Assembly: GCF_001642575.1 (NCBI RefSeq)
Contig: NZ_LXNG01000012.1
Coordinates: 248,001 to 312,000 of the forward strand
Direction: 5' to 3'
Length of the DNA stretch: 64,000 nt
Source: Xanthomonas floridensis
GTDB taxonomy: Bacteria > Pseudomonadota > Gammaproteobacteria > Xanthomonadales > Xanthomonadaceae
The position numbers were made by a program, and so were the translations under genes. How positions within the stretch are numbered: position 1 is the stretch's first letter; the number at the start of each line of letters is the position of its first letter. Below, piece by piece: positions 7,003-34,436 of this stretch. Under the pieces are notes generated by a model, which was given only the letters and a program-made list of their open reading frames with translations, ran no database searches and was not told the DNA's origin.

Positions 7003-8037
7003 TCAGTTCCAGCTCAATACGACCTTGCCGGCCTTGCCTTCTTCCATCAGGTCGAAACCCTTCTGGAAATCGTCGATCGGCAGCTGGTGGGTCAGCACCT
7101 TCTGCAACGGGAAGCCCGACAGCACCAGCTGGGTCATCTTGTACCAGGTCTCATACATCTTGCGGCCGTAGATGCCTTGCACAGTAAGGCCCTTGAAGAT
7201 GATCTTGTCCCAGTCGCAACCGGCACCGCGCGGCATGATGCCGAGCATGGCGATCTTGCCGCCGTGGTACATGCAATCGAGCATGTCGTTGAACGCGCGC
7301 GGGTTGCCGCTCATCTCAAGGCCCACGTCGAAGCCTTCCATGTGCAGGTCCTTCATCACGTCCTTCAACGACGTATTGGACACGTTGACCACGCGGGTGG
7401 CGCCCATGTCGGCGGCCAGCTTGAGACGGAAATCGTTGACGTCGGTGACCACCACGTTGCGCGCACCGATGTGCTTGCAGATGCCCGCCGCAATGATGCC
7501 GATCGGGCCGGCGCCGGTGATCAGCACGTCCTCGCCGATGACGTCGAACTCCAGCGCGCAATGCGCGGCGTTGCCGTAAGGGTCGAAGAATGCCGCCAGT
7601 TCGGAGGGGATCTGATCCGGGATTGGCCACAGGTTGGAGGCGGGCATCACCATGTATTCGGCAAAGGCGCCGTTGACGTTGACGCCGATGCCCACCGTGT
7701 TGGGGCACAGGTGCGGGCGGCCACCGCGGCAGTTGCGGCAATGGCCGCAGACGATGTGGCCTTCGGCCGAGACGCGTTGGCCGACCTGGTAGCCGGTCAC
7801 CGCTGAACCGAGCTCGGCTACGCGGCCGACGAACTCATGGCCGATGGTCAGGCCGGGGGTGATGGTGCGCTGGCTCCACTCGTCCCACAGGTAAATGTGC
7901 AGGTCGGTGCCGCAGATGGCGGTCTTTTCGAGCTTGATCAGCACCTCGTTGGGGCCGGGGGTGGGAACCGGCACCTGCTCCATCCAGATGCCTTTTCCCG
8001 CGTCGCGCTTGACCAGCGCTTTCATCGTCTGCGCCAT
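7003..8037 (-). CDS. tdh: L-threonine 3-dehydrogenase
   Basis: Zinc-dependent, NAD-linked medium-chain dehydrogenase (344 residues) that oxidises L-threonine to 2-amino-3-oxobutyrate, the substrate of Kbl. The catalytic-zinc residues are seen at Cys42 ('[10 protein letters not shown]') and His67-Glu68 ('IGHEFVG'); the structural-zinc cysteines are 97, 100, 103 and 111 ('[15 protein letters not shown]'). The nucleotide motif is '[10 protein letters not shown]'. The sequence follows E. coli Tdh along its whole length. Two in-frame ATGs (8037 and 8025) are possible starts. It is transcribed towards the TorF-like gene and is separated from kbl by the sulfate importer. Confidence 0.96.
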
Positions 8038-8663
8038 ATGGCGAGCCTGCTAAGTGAAATAAGTCGGCAATTATATGCCCGATGCCGCATTCGCCATGCG
8101 GCAGTGCAGGACGGCCGCCCACGTTGATCCGGCGCCTGCCGGGAGACGGGAGCAGGCGGTGTACGAGCGGGCGCACGAGCCGGGTAAGGGGCGACCTCGC
8201 GCTGCCCCCATCCGCCCTTCGGGCACCTTCCCCCGCTTGCGGGGGAAGGCGATGCGCAGCGCCGGATGGAGGTCACCACCGCCTTCACCCTTCTTCCGCA
8301 TGTGGGAGAAGGTGGAGCACAGCGCCGGATGGAGGCCACGACCGCCTTCACCCTTCTTCCGCATGTGGGAGAAGGTGGAGCACAGCGCCGGATGGAGGTC
8401 ACCACCGCCTTCACCCTTCTTCCGCATGCGGGGAAAGGCGATGCGCAGCGCCGGATGGAGGTCACCGCCTTCAGCCTTCTCCCGCTTGCGGGGGAAGGCG
8501 ATGCACAGCGCCGGATGGAGGTCACCACCGTCTTCAGCCTTCTCCCGCATGCGGGGAAAGGCGATGCGCAGCGCCGAATGGAGGTCACCACCGTTTTCAC
8601 CCTTCTCCCGCATGCGGGAGAAGGTGGCGCGCAGCGCCGGATGAGGGCGCAATCGGCAGATGC
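8038..8663. other. Intergenic region upstream of tdh, filled mainly by a 63-bp minisatellite
   Basis: 626 bases between the tdh start and the receptor stop. Bases 8038-8210 should carry the tdh promoter; I do not see a clear sigma70 box pair. From 8213 the region is a tandem repeat. Frames stay open across the array on both strands only because the period is a multiple of three; I do not call them genes. Confidence 0.75.
8213..8655. repeat. 63-bp minisatellite, about 7 units, with a palindromic core
   Basis: Units begin at 8221 (partial), 8281, 8344, 8407, 8467, 8530 and 8593, with a period of 63 bases; the unit at 8407 lacks one ACC triplet (60 bases). Each unit has the core CTTCTCCCGC AT GCGGGAGAAGG or a variant with T, A or G changes, followed by 'GCGCAGCGCCGGATGGAGGT'. 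The core is self-complementary. The first unit differs at its left end and carries 'TCCGCCCTTCGGGCACC', which is shared with the isolated element near 26.5 kb. This looks like local amplification of a dispersed palindromic element. Confidence 0.93.
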
Positions 8664-10988
8664 TCAGAATTTCACATCCAGGCTCAGGAAGGTCTGCCGC
8701 GGCGCACCGACCACCATGGTCTGGTTGTAGCCGGCCGGATCGGAGGCGACATAGCCGTTGGTGCCGGTGCTGGCGAAGTAGCGCTTGTCGGTGAGGTTGG
8801 TGACATTGAGCGCCAGGGCCACGTCCGCTACCCCGCCGAGGCGGCCGAAGTCGTAACGCGCGCCGGCATTGAACAGCCAGTACGAAGGCACCTGCGAATC
8901 GTTGAGGAAGGTGATATAGCGCTTGTCGACGTACTTGCCGTCCAGGTCCAGGCGCAGGTTGCCGAGCTGGTAGCTGGCGCTGGAAGAGAACATCAGCGCG
9001 GGAATGCCGACCACGTCCTTGCCGGAGGTGGCGACCACGCCGTTGTTGAGGTAATCGTCCTGATAACGCGAGCGATTCCACGACAGCGAGTTCAACCAGC
9101 TCAGGCCTTCGACCGGGCGCCACATCAGCGCCAGGTCGGCACCGGCGCTATGCACGGCGCCGACGTTGCTCAGGATCGCCGCGCAGGTCTGCACCGCGGT
9201 GCACGGCGAAGTGGTCAACAAGCGGTTGGAGAACTTGGTGAAATAGGCGTCGGCCGACAGCTGGAACTGCGCATCCTGCACGCGGTAACCCACCTGCACG
9301 GTCTGCGATTCTTCCGGCTCCAGCGTGGAGCGGCTGCGATCGAATGCGGCCTGCGAGGTGGCGAACGGGGTGAACCCGAATGCAGCGATGTTCTTGCTGT
9401 AGGAAGCGTAGAGGTCCTGGCGCTCGTCGAGCTTGTAGTTGATGCCCACCTGCGGCAGGAAGTTGTCTTCGGCACGGATGCGGCCTTGCGCCAGCGCGGT
9501 GGTCGGCACCAGCGATTGCGCGCGTGTGGTGGTGTCGAGCGCCTTTGCGCCGTAGTTCAGCGTGAGGCGGTCATCGAGCAGGCGCACGGTGTCCTGCAGG
9601 TACAGCATGCGGGTCTGGGTGGTGTAGCGCTGCAGGAAATCGCGGCGGAACGGAGTCTGCGCCTCAAAGACGTTGTACAGCGAGGTGTAGCCCTCGTTAC
9701 CGAGCGCGAAGTAGTTGCGGCCCTGCGTGGTACCCGCGTTCTCGGCCCAGGCACCGATCTCCAGATCGTGGTTGCCCCACGACCACTTCAGCGCACTGGT
9801 GCCGCCAAAACGATCCAGCCCGTAGTCGGTGGTGCGCATCGACACTGGAATCTGCGCCGAGGTGACGACATATGGCGTCACCCATTGCCCTTCGCCCCGA
9901 TTGGCGTGGTAGTAGCCGGCGGCATCCAGGGTTGCACCGCCGAACACGAACGTTCCCGACAGGCCGGCCAGATTATCCCGACGCAGGCCGCCGCCGGCGT
10001 AGTAGCTGGCATCCAGCCAGCTGTAGTCGCTGGGCAGGCCGGCCAGCGATTGCGGATAGCCATTGGCCACGCCGCTGGTGGCGCCGGTGCTCTGGTACGC
10101 GCGGGCCATCTGCACGGCAGTGGCCCAATCCGGCTGCAGGTAGTCGTAGTCCCAGCCCAGCGCGCGCTGGCTGGTCAACGACAGGTCCATGTAGTCGTAT
10201 TCCTTGCGCCGCGAGGTATCCAGGAACAGGCTCAGGCGATTACCGTCGCCCCATTGGTAGACGGTCTTGAGGTTGGCCTGTTCGGATGTCTGGTCGCCGA
10301 AGCCCTTCCACTTGTCGGTGCTGGCATTGGCGTAGGACAGGTACGCCGACAGGCCATTGCGATCGCCGGTGTCGGCGCGCACGAAGGTGCGGCGGGTTGC
10401 ATCGCTGCCCACCGTTTGCACCAGCCGCGCACCGGGCGTGGTCTGCGGATCGGCCGAGTAAAACTGCATGGTGCCGCCGAGATTGGTGTTGGAGGCGGTG
10501 CCCAGTGCACCGGCGCCTTGCGCGATCTCTACCGAACCGAGGTTTTCGGAAATGATGGCGCGGGTGATGTGCAGGCCGTTGGTGACGCCGTAGCTCATGT
10601 TGCCCAGCGGAATGCCATCCAGCGTGTAGCCCAGGCGGCTCTGATCGAAACCGTGCAGGGTGACCTGCGTGGACCACTCGTAGGTACCGAACGGATCGGC
10701 GGACTGGAACTGCACGCCCGGCAGTTTTTCGACTGCCTTGAAGGCGCTGCTGCCCGGTGTCAGCTGCTCGATGTCCTGCCGGCTGATGCGCTGCACCTGG
10801 CGCGTACTGCCCTGCGAGACCACATTGATCGCATCCAGTTGGGTGGCGTTTCCCGCGGCATCGGCCACTGCGGCCGGAGCATCTGCACTGCCGGCGGCAA
10901 CCGGCTCGGCGGCGTATGCCATGACGGGAAGCAGCGCGGCCAGGGCCAGCGCCAACGGAGTGACATCAAAACGACGAGCGGAAGTCAT
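8664..10988 (-). CDS. TonB-dependent outer-membrane receptor
   Basis: A 774-residue outer-membrane transporter. A signal peptide ends near 'VMAYAA'; the plug domain follows ('QRISRQDIEQLTPGSSAFKA', 'TLHGFDQSRLGYTLDGIPLG', 'GSVEIAQGAGALGTASNTN'); then a long beta-barrel that closes with 'TFLSLDVKF', where the terminal Phe is typical of barrel proteins. The ATG at 10988 has the ribosome site CAGGAT and is preferred over the longer open frame. The ligand is not evident; one Cys pair occurs in an extracellular-type loop ('SPCTAVQTCAA'). It is divergent from a phospholipase C and has a Pho-box-like site on its side of the shared region, so uptake under phosphate limitation is a reasonable inference. 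Confidence 0.93.
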   Translation of the reverse strand: MTSARRFDVTPLALALAALLPVMAYAAEPVAAGSADAPAAVADAAGNATQLDAINVVSQGSTRQVQRISRQDIEQLTPGSSAFKAVEKLPGVQFQSADPFGTYEWSTQVTLHGFDQSRLGYTLDGIPLGNMSYGVTNGLHITRAIISENLGSVEIAQGAGALGTASNTNLGGTMQFYSADPQTTPGARLVQTVGSDATRRTFVRADTGDRNGLSAYLSYANASTDKWKGFGDQTSEQANLKTVYQWGDGNRLSLFLDTSRRKEYDYMDLSLTSQRALGWDYDYLQPDWATAVQMARAYQSTGATSGVANGYPQSLAGLPSDYSWLDASYYAGGGLRRDNLAGLSGTFVFGGATLDAAGYYHANRGEGQWVTPYVVTSAQIPVSMRTTDYGLDRFGGTSALKWSWGNHDLEIGAWAENAGTTQGRNYFALGNEGYTSLYNVFEAQTPFRRDFLQRYTTQTRMLYLQDTVRLLDDRLTLNYGAKALDTTTRAQSLVPTTALAQGRIRAEDNFLPQVGINYKLDERQDLYASYSKNIAAFGFTPFATSQAAFDRSRSTLEPEESQTVQVGYRVQDAQFQLSADAYFTKFSNRLLTTSPCTAVQTCAAILSNVGAVHSAGADLALMWRPVEGLSWLNSLSWNRSRYQDDYLNNGVVATSGKDVVGIPALMFSSSASYQLGNLRLDLDGKYVDKRYITFLNDSQVPSYWLFNAGARYDFGRLGGVADVALALNVTNLTDKRYFASTGTNGYVASDPAGYNQTMVVGAPRQTFLSLDVKF

Positions 10989-11069
10989 GGGGGAATCCTG
11001 TTCGAGCACGGCTGGGGGCGGACGCGCGGTGCAAGACCGGCGTTTCGCGACGCAGGGTGTCAACGGCTC

Positions 11070-11087
11070 ATGAAACATTGATGACGG
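11070..11087 (-). promoter_or_regulatory. Pho-box-like site facing the TonB-dependent receptor
   Basis: Read on the minus strand it is CCGTCAT CAAT GTTTCAT, two 7-mers spaced 11 bases apart, as in the PhoB consensus CTGTCAT-N4-CTGTCAT (6/7 and 5/7 matches). It lies about 80 bases upstream of the receptor start. The downstream -10 element is weak by eye. Confidence 0.5.
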
Positions 11088-11090
11088 CCG

Positions 11091-11124
11091 CTGTCGCAAA
11101 ACTGTCGTGCTTGACGGCTATACG
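11091..11124 (+). promoter_or_regulatory. Pho-box promoter facing the phospholipase C gene
   Basis: CTGTCGC AAAA CTGTCGT at 11091-11108 is an 11-base-spaced direct repeat (5/7 and 6/7 to CTGTCAT, with an A-rich spacer). A -10-like TATACG starts at 11119, ten bases after the box, which is the spacing known for PhoB-activated promoters in E. coli. The phospholipase ATG is at 11183. Confidence 0.65.
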
Positions 11125-11182
11125 TGTGCGCTGCGCATCGCGACACGCGCTGCATCGCCCCGACTTCGGCAAGGCTTCCGTC

Positions 11183-13264
11183 ATGACGTCATCTTCTTCG
11201 CGCCGCGATTTTCTCAAGCGCGTTGCCGCGCTCACCGCGGCCGGAGCCTTGCCGACATCGATCGGCCGCGCGCTGGCGCTGCCGGCCAATGCGCGCACCG
11301 GCACGCTACGCGACATCGAGCATGTGGTGATCCTGATGCAGGAAAACCGCTCGTTCGATCATTACTTCGGCGCGCTGCGCGGCGTGCGCGGCTTCGGCGA
11401 TCCGCACGCGCTGCAGCTGCGCGACGGCAACCCGGTCTGGAGCCAGCCTGCCGCCGATGGACGGCGACTGTTGCCGTTCGCGTTCGATTCGCACAACACC
11501 AGCGCACCACTGATCAAGAGCCTGGATCATTCCTGGAAGGCCGGCCATGGGCAGGACCCGATGCGCTGGGCCGAATACGATGCCTGGGTGCCGTACAAGG
11601 GCGAGCTGACGATGGGCTATTTCCAGCGCCAGGACATCCCGTACTACCACGCGCTCGCCGATGCCTTCACCATCTGCGATGGGTATTTCTGTTCGATGCA
11701 CGGGCCTACCAATCCCAATCGCATGTATCTGTTCACCGGCACCAGCGGCCTGAGCGTGGGCGATCTGCGCGCGCAGGTGGCCAGCAATGCCGATGACGGC
11801 AACTGGACCGCCGACATGGCGCGCGACAAACCCGGTTACGCGGCGATGGGCTGGACCACCTATGCGCAGCGGCTGCAGGCGGCAGGCATCGACTGGCGCG
11901 TGTACCAGGAATACGACAACTTCGGCTGCAACTCGCTGGCGTATTTTTCCCATTACCGTGGGCTCGATCCCGCCGACGAGCGCTATCGCCGCGCGCGTGC
12001 CTGCGTGCCCGGATCCACCGCAGACAACGCGGCCACCACACAGGCCGATCATCTAGTCGCCGCAATTGCGACCGACGTGCAGGGCGATCGCCTGCCGCAG
12101 GTGTCGTGGATCATTCCACCCACTGCGTACTGTGAACATCCCGAAGCACCGCCGGCCTACGGTGAGTCGCTGGTGGCGCGGCTGATCGATGCGTTGACCT
12201 CCAATCCGCAGGTCTGGGCGAAGACGGCCTTGATCATCAACTACGACGAGAACGACGGTTTCTTCGATCATGTGCCGGCGCCGCTGCCGGCGCTGGATGC
12301 GCGCATGGGGCGCAGCAATGTCGATGTGCGCGGCGAAGCCTATGACGGCGTACCGGTGGGTCTGGGCATCCGCGTGCCGATGCTGGTGATCTCGCCGTTT
12401 ACACGCGGCGGCTGGGTCAATTCACAGGTGTTCGACCACACCTCGGTGCTGCGCCTGCTGGAGCGCCGCTTTGGCGTGGCCGAGCCCAACATCAGCCCCT
12501 GGCGCCGCGCGGTCAGCGGCGATCTGACCAGCGTGTTCGATTTCCGCAAACCGGACGATTCGGCACTGAGCGCATTGCCATCGATCGACGACTACCGCGT
12601 GCGGACCGCTTCGTTGCGCAACAAACCGTCACCGGTGCCGCCGAGCGACCCTCGCATGCCAAGGCAGGAGCCGGGCCAACGCCCCGCGCGCGCATTGCCC
12701 TATGCCCTGCAGGTGCATGCGCGCGTGCACGCCGGCAACGCGCTGCAGTTGCAGTTCGTCAACAGCGGCGCCGCTGCGGCAGCGTTCAACGTCTATACCC
12801 GCACCGCCAGCGGTGGGCCCTGGTACTACACCGTGTTGCCGGGCACGCAGCTCGACGATGTTCCGGTAGGTGCGCTGCACGAGGGGGCGTACGCGCTGCG
12901 CGTGCATGGGCCGAATGGATTCCTGCGCGAGTTCGCCGGCGAGTTGCACCCCGACGCCGAGCAGCAGGCCAGCCCCTGGGTGGAAGCGCGGCAGGACGGC
13001 GATGCGCTGGTGCTGGAGATCGGCAACGCAGGGCGACAGGCCTGTGCGCTGCAATTGCGTGCGCTGGACCATGGCGACCCGACGCCGCGGCCGCTGCAAC
13101 TCGCCGCCGGCCAGCGGCAGAGCATCCGCCTGCCGCTGGCGGCGAGCGATCACTGGTACGACCTGGTGATCGAGCAGCCGGGTGCGGCTTTCCGCCGCCG
13201 CCTGGCCGGCCACCTGGAAACCGGGCGACCCAGCCGCAGCGATCCCAGCTTTGGGCGCGCCTGA
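11183..13264 (+). CDS. Tat-exported phosphocholine-specific (non-haemolytic type) phospholipase C
   Basis: A 693-residue phosphoesterase that removes the phospho-headgroup from phospholipids outside the cytoplasm. The N-terminus has a twin-arginine signal ('SRRDFLKRVAALTAAGALP', residues 6-24). The catalytic domain starts with 'VVILMQENRSFDHYFG' (about 48-63) and contains 'SMHGPTNPNR' and 'ALIINYDENDGFFDHVP', the hallmarks of the PlcN/PlcH/acid-phosphatase A family. The C-terminal 200 residues resemble the two small beta domains found in bacterial PLCs. The ATG at 11183 is chosen because the Tat signal follows directly. A Pho-box-like promoter precedes it, fitting the known phosphate-starvation control of PLCs in Pseudomonas. 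Confidence 0.93.
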   Translation: MTSSSSRRDFLKRVAALTAAGALPTSIGRALALPANARTGTLRDIEHVVILMQENRSFDHYFGALRGVRGFGDPHALQLRDGNPVWSQPAADGRRLLPFAFDSHNTSAPLIKSLDHSWKAGHGQDPMRWAEYDAWVPYKGELTMGYFQRQDIPYYHALADAFTICDGYFCSMHGPTNPNRMYLFTGTSGLSVGDLRAQVASNADDGNWTADMARDKPGYAAMGWTTYAQRLQAAGIDWRVYQEYDNFGCNSLAYFSHYRGLDPADERYRRARACVPGSTADNAATTQADHLVAAIATDVQGDRLPQVSWIIPPTAYCEHPEAPPAYGESLVARLIDALTSNPQVWAKTALIINYDENDGFFDHVPAPLPALDARMGRSNVDVRGEAYDGVPVGLGIRVPMLVISPFTRGGWVNSQVFDHTSVLRLLERRFGVAEPNISPWRRAVSGDLTSVFDFRKPDDSALSALPSIDDYRVRTASLRNKPSPVPPSDPRMPRQEPGQRPARALPYALQVHARVHAGNALQLQFVNSGAAAAAFNVYTRTASGGPWYYTVLPGTQLDDVPVGALHEGAYALRVHGPNGFLREFAGELHPDAEQQASPWVEARQDGDALVLEIGNAGRQACALQLRALDHGDPTPRPLQLAAGQRQSIRLPLAASDHWYDLVIEQPGAAFRRRLAGHLETGRPSRSDPSFGRA

Positions 13265-13404
13265 GCCTGGGTGAGCCGGGCCGGCCAGCTGCGCATCAAG
13301 TGGTCTGGCGCGGTTGCGAGGTCACGTATCCCTGCCATCAGTCATGCGTTCGGCTGCAATCGTGAGCGTTACACTATAACTCTCGCCTATGCCGGAATCA
13401 TGCA

Positions 13405-15564
<2,160 letters not shown>

Positions 15565-32340: not shown

Positions 32341-33669
32341 TCACGCCGAGCGTGACAGTGGCAGGGACTGCTCGCGTTGCACGACGCGGGCGGCCACAAA
32401 ATGACACGAGAATTCGCTGCCGCGTCCCACCTCGCTTTCGATGTCCAGCCGCGCCTGGTGCAGGCCCAGGATGTGCTTGACGATCGACAGCCCCAGCCCG
32501 GTGCCGCCACTCTCGCGCGAGCGGCTGCTGGACACGCGATAGAAGCGTTCGGTGATGCGCGGCAGATGCGAGGCGGGGATGCCGTAGCCGGTGTCGCGCA
32601 CCGACAGCGCCGCGCCGTCGCCTTCGCGCAGGAAGCGGATGGTGACCGTGCCGCCGCCGGGCGTGTAGCGCACTGCGTTGGTCACCAGGTTGGAGAACGC
32701 GCTATGCAGTTCCTTGTTGGAGCCGAGCAGATCCACGCCGGCCTCGTCGATCACTTCCACCGTGTGCCGGCCCTGGCTGTGCGCCTCGGCCTCGCGGCGC
32801 AGGGTGGACAGCATCGGCGCCATCGCCACGTGTTCTTCGCCGAGTTCTTCCTGCGATTCCAGCCGCGACAGGGTCAGCAGGTCCTCGACCAGCTGCGCCA
32901 TGCGCTGCGACTGCTTGCGCATCTCCGCCAGCATCGGGCCCGAGTCCGGGAAGTCTTCCGGGTCGAGCATGTCCAGGTAGCCGTGCACCACCGTCAACGG
33001 GGTGCGCAGCTCGTGGGAGACATTGGCCACGAAGTCGCGGCGTACCTGCTCCAGGCGCAGCAGCTTGCTGACATCGCGTGCCACCAGCAGCCAGTAATCG
33101 TCCGAATACGGGATCAGGCGCAGATTCAGGCGCAGGTCCGGGTCCACCGGCGAGGCAGCATCCAGCATTGGTTCGGCATTGCGCCCGGCTGCCAGCCAGT
33201 GGGCCAGCGGCAGCGGCTGCAGCCGTTCCACCACCGACACACCCATATCGCCGGGATGATGCAGCCCGAGCAGGCCGCCGGCCGCCTTGTTGAACCACTG
33301 CACGCGCTGGCTATTGCGGTCCACCACCACCACCGCATCCGGCAGCGCCTGCGCCGCGGCGCGGTAGGTGCGCAGCATGTCGATCAGGCGTCGCTTGCGC
33401 CCGCGCATTTCAGCCTGGCTGCGGTACAGTAGGCGGTCCAGTTCGTTCCAGGCACCGACGCCGGCGGCCGGCTCGGCGCGCTGGCGCGCGGTGAGCCGGC
33501 GCAGCACCTGGCGCAGCCGCCAGTAATGCCAGCTCAGCACGCCCAGTGCGGTGAGCGTCAGTGCCATCCACACATGCTCGATCAACACGCCCACCACGAC
33601 GGCAGCGCCCAGCAACAGCGCAAGAGTGCCGAGCGTCTTGAGCCAGGCGGAACGGATATGTTGAGGCAT
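32341..33669 (-). CDS. phoR: Phosphate regulon sensor histidine kinase
   Basis: Membrane kinase (442 residues) that phosphorylates PhoB when phosphate is scarce. Two N-terminal membrane helices (about 11-48), a charged linker, a PAS-like domain (about 105-200), then the catalytic core: phospho-accepting His219 in 'VSHELRTPLTV', N-box 'NLVTNAVRYTPGG', G1 'DTGYGIP' and G2 'GTGLGLSIVKHIL'. The ATG at 33669 has no strong ribosome site; a GTG five codons upstream is an alternative. It follows phoB by 78 bases. Pst transport genes and phoU are not in this window. Confidence 0.95.
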   Translation of the reverse strand: MPQHIRSAWLKTLGTLALLLGAAVVVGVLIEHVWMALTLTALGVLSWHYWRLRQVLRRLTARQRAEPAAGVGAWNELDRLLYRSQAEMRGRKRRLIDMLRTYRAAAQALPDAVVVVDRNSQRVQWFNKAAGGLLGLHHPGDMGVSVVERLQPLPLAHWLAAGRNAEPMLDAASPVDPDLRLNLRLIPYSDDYWLLVARDVSKLLRLEQVRRDFVANVSHELRTPLTVVHGYLDMLDPEDFPDSGPMLAEMRKQSQRMAQLVEDLLTLSRLESQEELGEEHVAMAPMLSTLRREAEAHSQGRHTVEVIDEAGVDLLGSNKELHSAFSNLVTNAVRYTPGGGTVTIRFLREGDGAALSVRDTGYGIPASHLPRITERFYRVSSSRSRESGGTGLGLSIVKHILGLHQARLDIESEVGRGSEFSCHFVAARVVQREQSLPLSRSA

Positions 33670-33746
33670 GGAAGGCGTTACCACGGAGCGTCAGGTGGGC
33701 GTGCGAGCCAGCCCAGCATCAGGGCCGACCGGCTGTGCGGCAACCA

Positions 33747-34436
33747 CTAGGTTGCCGAAGAGAAACGGTAGCCCGAGCCACGCACGGTCTGCACCATGTT
33801 TTCCAGGCCGAACGGTTCCAGCGTCTTGCGCAGGCGGCGGATGTGCACGTCAATGGTGCGTTCTTCCACATACACGCTGCCGCCCCAGACATGGTCCAGC
33901 AGTTGGGTACGCGTATACACGCGCTCGGGGTGGGTCATGAAGAAATGCAGCAGGCGGTATTCGGTCGGGCCGATCGGCACCGGCGCATCGCCGGCGAACA
34001 CGCGGTGCGCAGCGCCATCGATCCGCAGGCGGCCCACCGCCACGCTGCCGTCTTCGTCGTCCTCGCGGGTGCGCCGCATCACTGCGCGGATGCGCGCCAG
34101 CAGTTCACGGGCGGAGAACGGCTTGACCACGTAGTCGTCGACCCCGGCCTCCAGGCCGCCGACACGGTCGTTCTCTTCGCCGCGCGCAGTCAGCATGATG
34201 ATCGGGATCTCCCGCGTCAGCTGCTCCTTGCGCCAGCGCCGTGCCAGATCCAGCCCGCTGGTGCCGGGCAACATCCAGTCCAGCAGGATCAGGTCCGGCA
34301 CCCGGTCGGCGATGGCGGTCTGCGCTTCACGCGCGTCGCCAGCATGGATGGGTTCGAACTCGCCTTTGCGCAGCGCGAACGCCACCATGTCGCGAATCGC
34401 GGGTTCGTCATCGACGATCAGAATGCGTTTCTGCAC
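33747..34436 (-). CDS. phoB: Phosphate regulon response regulator
   Basis: OmpR-type regulator of 229 residues that binds Pho boxes. The receiver domain shows Asp9-Asp10, the phosphorylation site Asp53 ('LILLDWMLPG'), Thr83 and Lys105 ('VVKPFSARELL'). The winged-helix domain ends 'VRGSGYRFS', the usual PhoB ending, with the recognition-helix region 'VEERTIDVHIRRLRK'. Translation starts at GTG 34436. A Pho-box-like site at 34485-34502 suggests autoregulation of the phoB-phoR-ppk1-ppx string. Confidence 0.96.
   Translation of the reverse strand: MQKRILIVDDEPAIRDMVAFALRKGEFEPIHAGDAREAQTAIADRVPDLILLDWMLPGTSGLDLARRWRKEQLTREIPIIMLTARGEENDRVGGLEAGVDDYVVKPFSARELLARIRAVMRRTREDDEDGSVAVGRLRIDGAAHRVFAGDAPVPIGPTEYRLLHFFMTHPERVYTRTQLLDHVWGGSVYVEERTIDVHIRRLRKTLEPFGLENMVQTVRGSGYRFSSAT

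Follow-up and report, generated by a model that had tools for sequence, protein, structure and literature searches.

Organization of the receptor/phospholipase locus

A TonB-dependent receptor gene and a phospholipase C gene lie back to back in a Xanthomonas-like genome, and the gap between them carries two repeats that resemble Pho boxes. Could PhoB control both genes from this gap, and what would the receptor then import? The genome analysed is a 5.25 Mb assembly of 58 contigs, and the window is a 64,000-nt stretch of it. The receptor (774 aa; 8664..10988, minus strand) matches the Pfam Plug and barrel models above their cut-offs, and its closest relative among 75 fetched loci is that of X. 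codiaei (97%). The divergent gene (693 aa; 11183..13264, plus strand) codes for a phosphocholine-specific phospholipase C (PLC), which matches TIGR03396 over its full length (residues 6-690; 873.8 bits, cut-off 580.25), carries a Tat signal (TIGR01409; 20.6, cut-off 16.7) and has solved relatives in the PDB. The receptor ATG starts at 10988 on the minus strand and that of the PLC at 11183 on the plus strand, with a shared gap of 194 bases.

The PhoB response regulator is encoded in the same window, 22.6 kb from the pair (33747..34436, minus strand); it is the sole match to TIGR02154 above the cut-off in the whole genome (370.6 bits, cut-off 296.2). The adjoining gene (32341..33684, minus strand) probably codes for the PhoR sensor kinase, an assignment made from its position and a reading of its sequence. 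An Rfam scan of 7900-13600 gave no match. Beyond the 3' end of the receptor gene, a tandem array of a 63-base unit in 6.7 copies occupies 8226-8643, between the receptor and threonine dehydrogenase genes.

Two Pho-box-like repeats in the shared gap

An earlier note on this DNA had described two repeats of the CTGTCAT type in the 194-base gap, each with an 11-base period, on opposite strands and three bases apart, and this description is exact base for base. The repeat facing the receptor (11070..11087, minus strand) consists of the half-sites CCGTCAT and GTTTCAT, separated by CAAT, and agrees with a doubled CTGTCRY at 11 of 14 positions, GTTTCAT being the degenerate half. After a spacer of three bases (11088-11090), the repeat facing the PLC (11091..11108, plus strand) follows as CTGTCGC and CTGTCGT, separated by AAAA; it agrees at 14 of 14 positions and is an exact CTGTCRYNNNNCTGTCRY.

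The two sides differ in their promoter geometry. A -10-like TATACG (11119..11124, plus strand) lies ten bases past the plus box, the same distance as in the oprP-type gene of this genome. On the receptor side, no -10-like hexamer is found ten bases past the minus box, where GAGCCGTTGA and then CACCCT are present, and a sigma-70 and terminator scan of 10700-11500 gave no match. The geometry of PhoB-activated promoters, as claimed earlier, is thus found for the PLC, with its box, ten bases and TATACG, but not for the receptor, where the repeat is degenerate and has no -10. The PLC side is, as a prediction, a textbook Pho promoter, and the receptor side is a conserved candidate Pho box without a clear -10. 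Next to the boxes, a block GAGCCGTTGACACCCTGCGTCGCGAAACG that contains TTGACA (11041..11069, minus strand) has 24 of its 29 columns invariant among 29 Xanthomonas sequences, and 14 of 29 once P. boreopolis joins the alignment. This block is as conserved in Xanthomonas as the boxes are, but it matches no Pho box and no clear promoter.

Conservation of the boxes across Xanthomonas

The gap was aligned over 30 sequences, namely the window, 28 other Xanthomonas loci and P. boreopolis. When the 29 Xanthomonas sequences are compared, invariant columns make up 26 of 36 within the boxes and 56 of 158 elsewhere (Fisher p 6e-5); the latter figure becomes 27 of 123 when the -10 and the block 11041-11069 are taken out as well. 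Of the two boxes, the minus box varies less, with 15 of 18 invariant columns against 11 of 18 in the plus box. The spacing from the TATA element to the plus box is identical in all 30 aligned sequences, and the distance between the boxes is equal in 29 of them, P. boreopolis being 13 bases longer (18 vs 5 in the alignment measure). Since the latter distance changed in P. boreopolis and the TATA-to-box spacing was kept, each box appears to belong to the gene that it faces.

A two-box pattern containing free positions matched, with no mismatch allowed, in 33 of 35 genomes of the genus (own genome counted, and overlapping those of the alignment), compared with 0 of 35 for the backwards control. 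In the two genomes missing the pattern, the receptor and PLC genes are still divergent and both boxes are present, with one or two changes relative to the window. A search for relatives that retain the gene pair but lack both repeats gave none among the genomes examined.

Exact sites are rare and intergenic

Across the 5.25 Mb genome there are three copies of the exact CTGTCRYNNNNCTGTCRY, all of them intergenic. Besides the plus box of the window, it is found at C5:47756, in a second receptor module described below, between the receptor and an acid phosphatase, and at C45:51181 (L086:5181-5198), between genes for an OprP-type porin and a response regulator, directed at the regulator. Two of the three sites are therefore at receptor/phosphoesterase gaps and one at a porin/response regulator gap. 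Looser searches behave differently. Within the window, the exact form has one match, and with up to two mismatches there are 4 matches versus 7.9 expected; in the genome, up to two mismatches give 483 Pho-like matches (254 forward, 229 reverse) versus 583 (301, 282) in the backwards control, for which bare CTGTC is unusable, being identical when reversed. Because loose matches do not exceed expectation or control, they carry no meaning, and, as they are even commoner in the backwards control, only exact or conserved sites were used. A pattern derived from the minus box has one window match with one mismatch allowed, versus 0.08 expected.

The 194-base region was also shuffled 5000 times with dinucleotides preserved and scored with a matrix of 12 half-sites, taken from two pstS-family genes and one oprP-type gene. 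The score of the plus box was reached in 53 shuffles, that of the minus box in 123, and both on opposite strands in 2. In X. citri, PstS and PhoX are up about 40-fold in low phosphate, according to the accessible part of the report (PMC5439949), and they are probably orthologous to two of the genes that trained the matrix (here two adjacent PstS-family genes).

A second receptor/phosphatase module in the same genome

The nearest paralogue of the window receptor in this genome is 45% identical (receptor 2). Its gene is divergent from that of an acid phosphatase (PAP2, with a PhoC model match below its cut-off), a GDPD gene lies downstream, and the gap between receptor 2 and the phosphatase has Pho boxes on both strands. 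This region was aligned across 30 genomes, a 31st locus (L159) being excluded as a short contig without the phosphatase. The divergent receptor/phosphoesterase design is therefore present twice, with different enzymes.

The receptor family has varied phosphoesterase neighbours

A first family set of 75 loci came from one scan of a genome collection, and further genomes of the same family were then added. With the window receptor's own orthologues in Xanthomonas left aside, the family set comprises 88 loci, and at 57 of them a phosphoesterase lies no more than 3 kb away, as found with PLC-type, GDPD, ENPP-type, PhoD, PhoX, PAP2 and phytase-like queries that were partly drawn from the family loci themselves. 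None of the queried enzymes is found at the other 31 of 88, some of which sit on short contigs. The 88 loci include four paralogues from Xanthomonas genomes (L163 to L166); L163 and L164, scored as enzyme-less, have a calcineurin-type phosphoesterase instead. L020 and L022 were removed because they duplicate the records L167 and L168. Since the sets overlap and related genomes are counted separately, these locus counts are not independent events.

The partner enzyme varies with the lineage. In Dyella/Rhodanobacter types, the receptor comes after an ENPP-type phosphodiesterase, a GDPD is usually present too, and the second receptor type is also found at some of these loci. An ENPP-type gene directly follows the receptor in Sphingorhabdus types, a PF04185 enzyme and PhoX follow it in two Sideroxydans records, and PhoD follows it in three Erythrobacter or Porphyrobacter types. 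The added genomes contribute PhoD, GDPD and phytase-like neighbours, as well as PLC genes placed tail to tail with the receptor.

As a control, the same queries were applied to the receptors of this genome, which holds 68 Plug matches; 67 were used, the partial match C4:91244 being left out. An enzyme match within 4 kb was found for 6 of 67, in a control that is narrow, being of one genome only. Two of the six are the window receptor and its paralogue; the others are a second PLC, 41% identical (C30), an ENPP-type enzyme 2.6 kb off (C9; 28%, E 1e-20 to 1e-22) and two matches with E of about 1e-7 (C27 and C23). In the tree, the C30 and C45:133536 receptors branch just outside the family. The second PLC gene comes after the C30 receptor, a TonB receptor that is a close outside relative of the family (L250:4780-10277), and the same queries found no such phosphoesterase neighbour for C45:133536.

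A phylum-wide draw of 398 genomes gave 15 with a match and 18 matches in total. Among the 11 of these 18 that were examined, one of which (L274) is close to L174 of the 88-locus set, a phosphoesterase adjoins the receptor in five, and in a sixth a PLC lies at 3.7 kb.

Pho spacing upstream of the receptors

Regions upstream of family receptors were scored at spacings 8 to 15 with a matrix of 14 half-sites, none of them from the receptor loci. After regions shorter than 150 bases were left out, 83 receptors, whose upstream regions are mutually related, gave a mean best score of 10.12 at spacing 11, compared with 4.03 to 6.04 at the other spacings. Scores of at least 12 were reached by 23 of 83 at spacing 11 and by at most 4 of 83 at any other, and none of 200 permuted matrices reached the family mean (highest 7.18). 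Spacing 11 also gives higher scores on the opposite strand, with a mean of 7.65 and 15 of 83 at 12 or above. The 63 other receptors of the genome average 5.87 at spacing 11 versus 4.73 to 5.65, and 3 of 63 reach 12; the phylum-wide sample has a mean of 9.2, with 5 of 11 scoring at least 10. The upstream region of the window receptor ranks 6th of 67 (9th with the 12-half-site matrix), and the outside relatives C30 and C45:133536 score 6.6 and 5.1. An earlier family scan, in which 54 of 85 loci had p <=0.05, was set aside in favour of this one, because receptor loci had contributed half-sites to its matrix and coding sequence made up most of its null. High scores were also obtained for Pho-like repeats upstream of two other receptors of this genome, C7:88507 (15.5) and C15:15279 (12.6); CATAG comes after the repeat of C15:15279 and also after the box that precedes the second pstS-family gene.

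On the enzyme side, a Pho-like repeat precedes the PLC gene in the four relatives where it lies tail to tail with the receptor (L038, 11.1; L169, 7.6; L170, 9.7; L171, 13.9), two of them (L169 and L170) scoring below 10. A TANNNT hexamer is present ten bases past the repeat in L038, L169 and L170, and not in L171. Among 60 enzyme genes near family receptors, three entries are one and the same gene, PhoC of this genome, because its loci overlap; the set averages 5.49 at spacing 11 and 10 of 60 reach 10, so that most have no box of their own. We read this as operon transcription, and it does not count as evidence for the scavenging hypothesis.

Fold and presumed ligand of the receptor

The predicted model of the receptor (mean pLDDT 86.7) matches solved TonB-dependent receptors. 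Many siderophore receptors are among the nearest folds, and B12, PQQ, citrate and siderophore receptors score alike; because so many types tie, the fold search cannot tell the ligand. The best NCBIfam match is the siderophore receptor model TIGR01783, at 153.3 bits, below its cut-off of 223.5. The earlier note had linked import to phospholipid breakdown or an iron source, which is unsupported as put, the relatives of the receptor adjoining many different phosphoesterases. With so many esterase partners, a general phosphorus-ester ligand is favoured over one phospholipid product, and we infer that it is most likely a headgroup-type phosphodiester or phosphomonoester.

Xanthomonas genomes hold dozens of TonB-dependent receptors, and to our knowledge the ligands of few of these are known. 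The receptor family studied here gains a testable ligand class (phosphorus esters), an inducing condition and a second copy as an internal control. Uptake of organic phosphorus across the outer membrane would join the known carbohydrate and iron uses of TonB receptors.

A putative phosphorus-scavenging unit and its alternatives

We consider it fairly probable that the pair is a PhoB-controlled phosphorus-scavenging unit, in which PhoB would bind a two-way promoter, both genes would respond to phosphate and the receptor would carry an organophosphate inwards. The sequence of the gap, its conservation, the co-location of the family with phosphoesterases and the Pho spacing upstream of its members all point in this direction. 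Against it stand the degenerate receptor-side box, which ranks no higher than 6th or 9th and is followed by no -10, the 31 of 88 loci lacking a queried enzyme, the queries drawn in part from the loci themselves, the incomplete fit of C30 and C45:133536, a matrix of no more than 14 half-sites applied to related upstream regions, two of the four tail-to-tail PLC genes scoring below 10, and the phylum-wide draw, which was not selected by pattern and has an adjacent phosphoesterase in 5 of 11 loci and a score of at least 10 in 5 of 11. Under phosphate starvation, phosphorylated PhoB would bind the plus box and activate PLC transcription from the TATACG promoter, and the minus box would act likewise for the receptor, from a promoter without a placed position. 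The Tat-exported PLC would release phosphorus headgroups, the receptor would import the phosphorus ester into the periplasm, and exported phosphoesterases there would free phosphate from it for the Pst system. The receptor as a phosphate-starvation gene, as proposed earlier, is plausible from the sequence: Pho boxes face both genes and are conserved in Xanthomonas, and PhoB is encoded in the window. On a broader reading we are evenly divided: the receptor could represent a proteobacterial family for phosphorus-ester import under PhoB, spread over Xanthomonadaceae and Rhodanobacteraceae-type, Sphingomonadales-type and Sideroxydans-type genomes. Its exported phosphoesterases (PLC, GDPD, ENPP-type, PhoD, PhoX, acid phosphatase or phytase-like) would be interchangeable, and in Xanthomonas it would be controlled via two-way Pho promoters.

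Other explanations were weighed against the scavenging unit. It is conceivable, though unlikely, that the PLC alone is Pho-regulated, the minus repeat being a remnant or an extra PhoB site that assists the PLC promoter and the receptor being run from the TTGACA block by another factor. Such an arrangement would suit the degenerate minus box, with no -10 at the right distance, and the block 11041-11069, which fits no Pho model. However, it is the minus box that is better conserved (15/18 vs 11/18 columns), the family receptors, mostly without a divergent PLC, have the 11-base Pho spacing in their own direction, and the same design recurs in the second module. That the boxes are chance repeats in a conserved divergent promoter is very improbable: loose Pho-like matches are indeed no more frequent than in the controls, in the window and in the genome, but the exact form occurs only three times in 5.25 Mb, always intergenic and twice at receptor/phosphoesterase gaps, only 2 of 5000 shuffles reach both strands, and the 11-base spacing signal is family-wide.

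The ligand, too, could be read otherwise. PhoX and PhoD phosphatases need iron, and a siderophore or ferric-phosphate receptor might be co-induced with phosphatases since some of them require it. The siderophore model as best NCBIfam match, albeit below its cut-off, and the numerous siderophore receptors among the nearest folds speak for such a role. Nevertheless, the partners include GDPD, ENPP-type, PAP2 and PLC families, which are not usually iron enzymes, and the fold does not separate ligands, with B12, PQQ, citrate and siderophore receptors tied; an iron receptor thus seems decidedly doubtful.

Comparison with known systems

A phosphocholine-type PLC is under PhoB control in Pseudomonas, where we know of no divergent receptor. 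The PhoB regulon of Caulobacter crescentus includes TonB-dependent receptors, a PLC, a GDPD and a nucleotide pyrophosphatase, which its authors relate to phosphorus scavenging (accessible text of PMC11208175). As predicted here, TonB receptors and phospholipid-degrading enzymes are linked to PhoB, a likeness by description; the accessible text of PMC11208175 was not found to state a divergent receptor/PLC pair. In Flavobacterium, phosphate depletion induces PusCD and the low-phosphate TBDTs, whose genes lie together with those of phosphomonoesterases and phosphodiesterases (accessible text of PMC8115612). The Pus systems are, however, Bacteroidetes SusC/SusD pairs (PMC8115612), whereas no SusD domain is present among five scanned window proteins. 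The accessible text of a third report describes XanT/XanP of Xanthomonas oryzae pv. oryzicola, in which a phosphodiester is taken up by a TonB-dependent transporter with a phosphoesterase next to it (PMC12807533). Compared by description, XanT/XanP is avrBs2-linked, has a 2H phosphoesterase and uses its substrate as a nutrient (PMC12807533), whereas the present locus has a PLC and Pho boxes. No adjacent 2H phosphoesterase is present among the scanned neighbours of the receptor, which are the PLC, an S46 peptidase, threonine dehydrogenase and a TorF porin.

The main text of PMC1790865, in its accessible form, does not contain the whole words phospholipase, phytase, phosphatase or Pho. The earlier note had called the unit undescribed. 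This holds for the locus itself in the literature searched, where the receptor/PLC pair was not found described, though the X. citri phosphate proteome (J Proteomics 2014) may report it. It does not hold for the kind, since, on the accessible text of both reports, PhoB-controlled receptors in Caulobacter (PMC11208175) and low-phosphate receptors in Flavobacterium (PMC8115612) are already known. Novelty may lie in the combination of a single proteobacterial receptor family with exchangeable enzymes, and in the two-way Pho promoters of Xanthomonas.

Two further neighbours of family receptors were observed. In Sphingopyxis/Sphingorhabdus types, the genes beside the family receptor code for a larger TonB receptor and for a protein of 529 residues that matches no Pfam model (L066:734-5122), a pair that recalls, by description only, the Caulobacter ElpS and Flavobacterium low-phosphate lipoprotein loci. 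At two other loci (L175:8098-9366 and L178:8323-9681), a protein of 423-453 residues, without a Pfam match in its L175 copy, follows the family receptor.
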